Positions 33,420 through 35,012 of a DNA stretch of 64,000 bases are shown piece by piece. The position numbers and the translations under genes were made by a program. The stretch is from Candidatus Obscuribacterales bacterium. GTDB taxonomy: Bacteria; Cyanobacteriota; Vampirovibrionia; Obscuribacterales; Obscuribacteraceae. Each line of letters begins with the position of its first letter. Position 1 is the stretch's first letter. Under the pieces are notes generated by a model. The model saw nothing but the letters and a program-made list of their open reading frames with translations, searched no databases and was not told the origin of the DNA. Where the stretch lies: positions 1 through 64,000 of the forward strand of contig JAIETE010000142.1 in NCBI GenBank assembly GCA_019745505.1, read 5' to 3'.

Positions 33420-33782
33420 TTACTTGCGACCGACTGCGGTTTTGGCTGTTTCGACCAGACCGGCGAATGCCTTCTCGTCGGTTACTGCCATGTGAGCGAG
33501 CACCTTGCGGTTGAGGTTGATGCCTTGCTTCTGCAGACCGTGCATGAAGAGCGAATAGCTCAGTCCATTGGCGCGGGTGCCGGCATTGATGCGGGTGATC
33601 CAGAGACGTCTGAAATCACGTTTGCGCTTTCTTCTGTCGGCAAATGCATTGCGCCATGCGCGCATGATTGCTTGGTTGGCGGCGATGAAAAGTCTCGATT
33701 TCGAGCCGCGAAAACCTTTTGCGTATTTGAGGATTTTCTTGTGCCGTTTTTGCAGCACATTCCCACGTTTTACTCTAGCCAT
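33420..33782 (-). CDS. rplT: 50S ribosomal protein L20
   Basis: 120 residues, normal length for bL20, with the typical opening [19 protein letters not shown], then [28 protein letters not shown] and a C-terminal helical domain. L20 nucleates 23S rRNA folding. In many bacteria it represses its own operon by binding the mRNA. The 164-base spacer between rpmI and rplT contains CTTGGC/GCCAAG and CATTC/GAATG hairpins that could serve such control. ATG at 33782 with AAGGAG upstream. Confidence 0.97.
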
Positions 33783-33946: not shown

Positions 33947-34156
33947 TTAGCGAAGGTACTTGGTGTACGGGAAGCACTCCAGGATGTTGTCTTCCTGGGT
34001 CTTATCGAGAGGAGCCCATCCTCTCAGTTTTCTCTTGACATTCGCCGACATCCATTCGTTGATGTGGCGCTTGCCGGCTTGGCGGCGCAGGATTTTGCCG
34101 GTACCGGTTATTTTGAACCGGCGGGCTGCCGCCTTGTTGGTCTTCATCTTAGGCAT
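33947..34156 (-). CDS. rpmI: 50S ribosomal protein L35
   Basis: 69 residues, standard bL35: PKMKTNKAAARRFKITGTGK, then RRQAGKRH and the C-terminal LRGWAPLDK segment. ATG at 34156. It lies between a diverged infC fragment upstream and rplT downstream in the canonical infC-rpmI-rplT order. Binds 23S rRNA in the large subunit. Confidence 0.97.
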   Translation of the reverse strand: MPKMKTNKAAARRFKITGTGKILRRQAGKRHINEWMSANVKRKLRGWAPLDKTQEDNILECFPYTKYLR

Positions 34157-34242
34157 TGCCAGTGACCCTTTACGTTCTAATTGGTGGATACGAATTACGT
34201 TTTGCCGGTTTCGGCTAACGTTTCACCATCCCTGAGACAGTG

Positions 34243-34395
34243 AATTAAACCCCAGATCTGGGGTCCGGCCGTTCCGCAGGCAAAGTCATCCCTGCTGCGG
34301 AATTGCAGAGAGGACCATGATAACACTCTTCCTCTCTAAATATGGCTGCCTGTCAATGATTGCTAAATCTTTTAGCTGACATTGAGACACGATTC
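34243..34395 (-). pseudogene. Diverged fragment of a second infC (IF3 C-terminus)
   Basis: On the minus strand this stretch aligns with the 3-prime end of infC (34410-34560) at an offset of about 165 bases, with roughly 70 percent identity over the best 80 bases. Its translation reads LKDLAIIDRQPYLERKSVIM, then VLSAIPQQG and a stop. The true IF3 has LKELALIDREPRLEGKSVIM, then ILSAIPQRG. By my count 22 of 32 residues match and most changes are conservative. A stop codon cuts the fragment from any upstream frame, so it is not a full gene. The mild, protein-like changes suggest it came from another functional infC rather than decaying in place. Confidence 0.75.
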
Positions 34396-34409
34396 TTCAA
34401 ATTGCAGAA

Positions 34410-35012
34410 TCAGGCCCCGGCTTTGGGGTCCGGCTTCTCTATCGGCTGAGGCTTACCGCGCTGCGGAATAGCAGAGAGGATCATAATGACGCTCTTGCCT
34501 TCCAGGCGTGGCTCTCTGTCGATCAGTGCCAGCTCTTTCAGCTCGTTGGAAAAGCGATTCATCAGGTCGATAGCCATTTTCGAGTGCTGCATTTCGCGAC
34601 CGCGCAGCATGATGACCACTTTGATTTTGTCGCCGTCATTGAGGAATTTTTGCGCGTTGCGAAGCTTCACGTTGTAGTCGTGCTCTTCGATTTTGTAGCG
34701 CATCTTTATCTCTTTGACATCGACGATATGATGCTTTTTCTTTGTCTCGCGCTCTTTTTTCTGCTGGTCGAATTTGAAGCGACCGTAGTCCATAATCCGG
34801 GCTACAGGCGGGTTTGCATCGGGCTGAACTAGGAAAAGGTCAAGTCCGCGCTCGCGAGCAGTGTTTAAAGCTTCGCGAGTAGGAACGATGCCCAGCTGGT
34901 TACCTTCTTCATCAATGAGGCGAACCTCTCTATCCCTAATGCGCTCGTTCAAAAGCGGCATGTCTCTTCTGGGATCGTTGGGGCGGCGAACGTCACCTTT
35001 GTCTATGCTCAA
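34410..35012 (-). CDS. infC: Translation initiation factor IF-3
   Basis: 200 residues with the IF3 N-domain (PLLNERIRDREVRLIDEEGN, then LGIVPTREAL and DLFLVQPDANPPVARIMDYG), a Lys-rich linker and the C-domain (IKMRYKIEEHDYNVKLRNAQ, then KVVIMLRGREMQHSKMA). IF3 keeps 30S subunits free and checks start-codon pairing. The start is TTG at 35012 with GAGGAG seven bases upstream. A non-AUG start allows classic autoregulation because IF3 rejects poor start codons. A short Pro/Lys-rich C-terminal tail extends beyond the usual end. It is followed by a fragment of a second infC and then rpmI and rplT. Confidence 0.97.
   Translation of the reverse strand: MSIDKGDVRRPNDPRRDMPLLNERIRDREVRLIDEEGNQLGIVPTREALNTARERGLDLFLVQPDANPPVARIMDYGRFKFDQQKKERETKKKHHIVDVKEIKMRYKIEEHDYNVKLRNAQKFLNDGDKIKVVIMLRGREMQHSKMAIDLMNRFSNELKELALIDREPRLEGKSVIMILSAIPQRGKPQPIEKPDPKAGA

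Follow-up and report, generated by a model that had tools for sequence, protein, structure and literature searches.

In Escherichia coli, a promoter for ribosomal-protein genes has been reported inside infC (PMC10931766), and bL20 acts through a 'translated operator' with a pseudoknot that begins at the very end of that gene (PMC10931766; PMC6962249, citing Lesage 1990 and Chiaruttini 1997). In Bacillus subtilis, the bL20 leader (Rfam L20_leader) serves the same infC-rpmI-rplT genes, with control likewise placed upstream of ribosomal-protein genes – though there the leader lies upstream of infC and attenuates transcription from a promoter before infC.

We analyzed the infC-rpmI-rplT locus within a 64,000-nucleotide stretch of a Candidatus Obscuribacterales genome (contig JAIETE010000142.1, hereafter the window). 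As in E. coli, the infC 3' region of the Obscuribacterales would combine IF3 coding with rpmI-rplT control, and comparative evidence suggests an infC-internal rpmI-rplT promoter of the E. coli kind in relatives with a single infC. Unlike E. coli, the Obscuribacterales belong to another phylum and have a fixed upstream box, an extended -10 and constrained synonymous codons; duplication has, moreover, repeatedly separated their putative control region from the coding sequence and left it behind as a gene-end relic. In the window, the element lies outside infC. Unlike in B. subtilis, no Rfam leader matches the window's infC-rpmI locus. The closest promoter class is the extended -10 sigma-70 promoter (TGnTATAAT), with which TGTTATNAT is in register, but from which the locus differs in having no usable -35 at 16-18 nt and in a conserved box (TTTAGCA-N3-ATTGACA) one helical turn upstream of the usual -35 position. 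Repeated release of an infC-internal promoter from coding sequence by duplication appears to be new; a limited literature search found no description of repeated separation that leaves gene-end relics as promoters.

Results

A decayed second infC lies between infC and rpmI

On the minus strand of the window, infC is followed by a 253-nt spacer, rpmI and rplT (Table 1). We observed that the spacer repeats the infC 3' end (74% over 84 nt and 79% over 28 nt), with a start-to-start spacing of 165-166 between the fragment and the infC copy. The fragment matches the IF3 profile (E 8e-9, residues 153-182), and none of 100 shuffles that left the motif bases in place scored as high, so its likeness to infC is not a product of chance. 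An earlier note on this DNA had described a fragment of a second, diverged infC at this place, and the repeat, the profile match and the shuffles bear it out, as does our translation, which is the same (IIDRQPYLERKSVIMVLSAIPQQG, then a stop). The note gave the extent as 34243-34395; the fragment is present there, but alignment to the second infC (infC2) of a relative carries the homology further 5', to about 34409. The entire spacer is thus infC2 remnant plus rpmI leader.

The fragment has the marks of an infC pseudogene: homology to infC, a lost frame and lost coding constraint. Only the last ~55 residues of IF3 are retained, and the reading frame ends after PQQG with a stop followed by indels. 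Complete N and C domains and an open frame, as expected of a functional IF3, are absent from the fragment, and its Pfam IF3_C score is far under the cut-off. The window's genome has no other infC.

Table 1. Features of the infC-rpmI-rplT locus in the window; positions are those of the forward strand.
Feature	Position	Strand	Remarks
infC (IF3), full length	34410-35012	-	IF3_N and IF3_C, E about 1e-32
Remnant of second, tandem infC (about residue 146 to C-terminus), frame broken	34242-34409	-	Intact homologue in L012
Conserved upstream box GATTTAGCAATCATTGACAG, direct repeat TTTAGCA / ATTGACA, 10-bp period	34350-34369	-	About -57 to -41 from the putative start
Extended -10 TGTTATCAT of the putative rpmI-rplT promoter	34317-34325	-	28 nt after TTGACA
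Putative transcription start	34310	-	About 7 nt past the -10; placed from the -10 only
Leader hairpin 1, TTCCGCAG...CTGCGGAA	34272-34302	-	Compensatory A-U to G-C change in both non-coding copies (window, L009)
Leader hairpin 2, GGACCCC...GGGGTTT, then AATT; terminator-like	34248-34265	-	
Irregular leader hairpin ACGTT-A-GCCG-AAAC-CGGC-AA-AACGT	34197-34221	-	Almost unchanged across six genomes, with N4 as the loop
rpmI (bL35), first gene of the putative transcription unit	33947-34156	-	
rplT (bL20)	33420-33782	-	

The fragment derives from a tandem copy within the genus

Six genomes of the same genus, the window's included, hold the locus. One (L012) has two full infC genes in tandem; in L013, L009 and the window, infC is accompanied by a 3' fragment at the same place, with a different 5' extent in each relative; and L010 and L011 have only one infC, with a 3' end much like the fragment. 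The second infC of L012 is intact up to ...SAIPRRG and its stop, and its body differs from infC1 by 23/16/46% at codon positions 1/2/3, and is thus still coding-constrained. In an infC tree this full copy falls inside the same-genus clade (support 99/94) on a long branch. The fragment itself is nearest to same-genus infC 3' ends (81-84% identity) rather than to the local infC (66%). From the tree position, the tandem place and the tail similarity, we infer that the fragment is not foreign but is the end, next to rpmI, of a native tandem copy of infC.

The second infC of L012 (2388-2909 of that locus) directly follows infC with a shortened N-terminus, a body under relaxed coding constraint and a likely GTG start about 20 nt past the infC stop.

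The fragment has lost coding constraint but is conserved as DNA

In a comparison of the window with L009, its nearest relative, differences at codon positions 1/2/3 amount to 19/22/12% in the fragment and 4/1/30% in the infC body, which indicates that the fragment is free of coding constraint. The changes are therefore not mainly conservative, as the earlier note had described them. The fragment nonetheless diverges less than synonymous sites, in agreement with that note's view that simple decay does not account for it: 18% (22/124) between the window and L009 against 31-37% at neutral sites (four-fold sites 21/57, p about 0.008), and 9% (11/126) between L012 and L013 against 22% (43/192) at third positions (p 0.001). 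The fragment has thus lost its role as protein while its DNA remains constrained, and its conservation is due to a DNA element rather than a protein.

A promoter-like element at the end of infC

In Obscuribacterales with infC immediately next to rpmI, a fixed DNA element written in rare synonymous codons occupies the final ~25 codons of infC. It consists of GATTTAGCAATNATTGACAG followed by the extended -10 TGTTATNAT, with 28 nt from TTGACA to TATNAT; across the family, an infC end directly before rpmI tends to read GATTTAGCAATNATTGACAG...TGTTATNATGAT. In 36 of 42 loci, the 300 nt upstream of rpmI contain the extended -10 pattern TGNTATNAT (2% expected per locus), and 23 loci have an exact TTGACA 27-28 nt before TATNAT. 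A related -10 is present in a second family of the order, and sampled genomes from other orders of the class lack the element.

Codon usage in the 23 genomes with infC adjoining rpmI is far more uniform than in synonymous shuffles exactly at the element. Against shuffles that preserve each gene's protein and codon usage, per-codon z values in these genomes are 12 for K159, 7 for D160, 12 for L161, 6 for A162, 7 for S174 and 14 for V175; in 11 genomes with infC separated from rpmI, the values for K159, D160, A162 and V175 lie close to background and those for L161 and S174 only slightly above it. Leu161 is TTA in 16 of 20 adjacent genomes versus 14% elsewhere, and codon 175 ends in T (GTT/ATT) in 21/21 adjacent but 0/13 separated genomes. 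Codon 174 is AGT in most adjacent genomes, or GCT, ACT or AAT after an amino-acid change; where Ser174 has become Ala, Thr or Asn, the codon mostly still ends in T, which keeps TGnTATNAT.

We also observed that the adjacent genomes have unusually fixed Leu-Ser codons at 179-180 (CTCTC), just past the -10 (z 8 and 13.5). These codons coincide with the expected position of a transcription start.

In the window's genome, the exact composite element is found in the fragment only (one-mismatch matches number 7, versus 1 for a control pattern), and the fragment is the sole exact or near-exact match to the upstream box alone. The element is missing from the 3' end of the window's own infC, where the SVIM codons read AGC GTC ATT ATG.

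The sequence suggests a promoter role for the element and, with it, a start site and any regulator. TGTTATCAT has TGn directly before a TATAAT-like -10, as in extended -10 sigma-70 promoters, a class in which the -35 hexamer is optional. There is no -35 hexamer at 16-18 nt, and TTGACA instead stands at 28 nt, so the element is not a textbook promoter; a standard sigma-70 scan of the minus strand did not call it.

The element follows rpmI rather than infC

In all 12 genomes with more than 200 nt between infC and rpmI, the -10 is gone from infC; at less than 200 nt, the loss is seen in 2 of 31, and both of these have a -10-like site in the spacer. The association of separation with -10 loss has a Fisher p of 6e-9 that is not tree-corrected and reflects about six changes on the tree. 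With tree correction, three pairs agree, none disagrees and one is neutral (p 0.25), which is not significant because there are only four independent pairs.

The separated genomes whose rpmI was read have a -10-like site in the spacer, just upstream of rpmI. An infC origin of this site could be demonstrated in the window's genus, L154 and L185, and is probable in L183/L120; a decayed infC end thus houses it in three lineages at least, and probably in four. For L125, L134, L130/131, L146/148 and L119, tests that kept the motif bases unchanged could not demonstrate an infC origin of the spacer element. Three loci (L185, L184 and L183) were obtained after the element was defined. L185 (genome G035) has infC, a frame-broken second infC end (E 1e-17) and a perfect element before rpmI, while its sister L147 has a single infC that bears the element; L184 has the full element inside infC, and L183 has the extended -10.

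Additional IF3-like sequences were observed. The L015 locus (about 1840-2578) has an open frame, at most about 282 aa long, with a partial IF3 N-domain (residues 28-75) ahead of a full second IF3; rpmI of that genome lies about 21 kb away (L183). Several family members encode distant IF3-like proteins, mostly of about 210-240 aa and 29-60% identical to IF3, away from infC (G034:C88, G036:C7, G042:C40, G016:C58, G014:C31, G011:C25 and C52, G035:C343).

The rpmI leader is predicted to be structured

The fragment sits in the L35/L20 control region, directly upstream of rpmI-rplT, as the earlier note had pointed out. The predicted rpmI leader is strongly structured (z -3.55; hairpins in Table 1). 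Its irregular hairpin, for which we found no Rfam match and, on searching one 23S gene (L186) as plain text, no look-alike there, may be a candidate bL20 or bL35 site.

Alternative explanations

The earlier note had proposed that recombination brought the fragment into the operon from a different, functional infC. The fragment was indeed once part of a whole gene, intact in L012 with a constrained body, and its divergence from the local infC clearly exceeds that of the genus's infC genes among themselves. That excess, however, follows from the loss of coding constraint. The intact second copy of L012 is a same-genus tandem copy, the position is common to four genomes, and relatives – L009 in particular – carry the same segment with frame-breaking changes at the same position, contrary to what the note had expected of an imported piece; only its expectation that the local infC would not be the closest sequence held. 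Recombination is thus very improbable, and arrival from elsewhere was rejected on the tree and the position. A plain tandem duplication followed by neutral decay, with the fragment as junk on its way out, would account for the broken frame, the lack of codon-position bias, the varying 5' extents and the two relatives that have no fragment. It is nonetheless quite unlikely, given that the fragment evolves more slowly than synonymous sites, that at least three unrelated lineages have always retained the rpmI-proximal end, bearing the same element, and that L010 and L011 still bear the element, inside infC. A short functional peptide could be read from a 34-aa open frame that begins with GTG (34286-34390), but the absence of codon-position bias and a frameshift and stop inside the same stretch of L009 make it extremely improbable; this candidate was discarded on the codon-position divergence and the frameshifted relative.

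Two further alternatives concern what the element does and when the pair arose. Instead of being a promoter, the element could act at the RNA level, as part of a bL20 (or bL35) translational operator extending into infC like that of E. coli; the strong leader structure, the compensatory pair change and the invariant irregular hairpin are in keeping with this. The best-conserved bases, however, are those of TGnTATNAT, whose free position may be A, C or T, as in a -10, and the distance from element to rpmI varies from about 70 to 245 nt over unrelated intervening sequence. We therefore regard an RNA operator in place of a promoter as unlikely; regulation by the leader RNA would in any case be compatible with an upstream promoter. 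The single infC of L010 and L011 could also be a later hybrid, formed by deletion between infC1 and the infC2 end, with the pair ancestral to the genus. The L010 gene matches infC1 over its body (81-83%, versus 71% to infC2) and, over its last ~130 nt, infC2 and the fragments at least as well as infC1 or better (79-89%, versus 75-79% to infC1), as a hybrid would, and flanking genes leave the branching order of the three genome pairs unresolved. Promoter constraint alone accounts for the tail similarity, however, and the infC body tree places L010 and L011, weakly, outside the duplicated group (89/71); we consider such a hybrid, which would be a variant of the history favored here, rather unlikely.

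Discussion

Duplication, decay, nucleotide-level constraint and the link to rpmI adjacency were all observed in the genomes compared, and we think it likely that the fragment is the end of a duplicated infC that has been retained as promoter and leader of rpmI-rplT. The infC 3' end of Obscuribacterales would then be dual, encoding the end of IF3 and carrying the rpmI-rplT promoter (box and extended -10) along with the first part of the leader. Tandem duplication of infC in the window's genus would have let the upstream copy keep the protein role and lose the promoter bases, while the downstream copy adjoining rpmI would have lost its protein role and been whittled to its promoter-bearing end, the present fragment. 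RNA polymerase would start near 34310 on the minus strand and produce a structured leader of roughly 150 nt ahead of rpmI, where bL20 may exert control.

More tentatively, and with somewhat less than even confidence, the infC 3' end may be in an adaptive conflict between protein and promoter that has been resolved repeatedly by duplication, the upstream copy returning to ordinary codons and the downstream copy becoming a non-coding promoter. That promoter would be an unusual one, with TTTAGCA-N3-ATTGACA one helical turn above an extended -10, probably as the site of a dedicated activator.

These genomes would form a natural series from a single dual-use gene to a full tandem pair, to fragments, and to a promoter apart from infC – a series that suggests how a regulatory element lying within essential coding sequence comes to stand on its own. 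The analysis predicts a promoter for an uncultured group and offers an account of a pseudogene fragment that annotation would call junk. It also advises caution, as relics of gene ends in front of ribosomal-protein genes may work as promoters.
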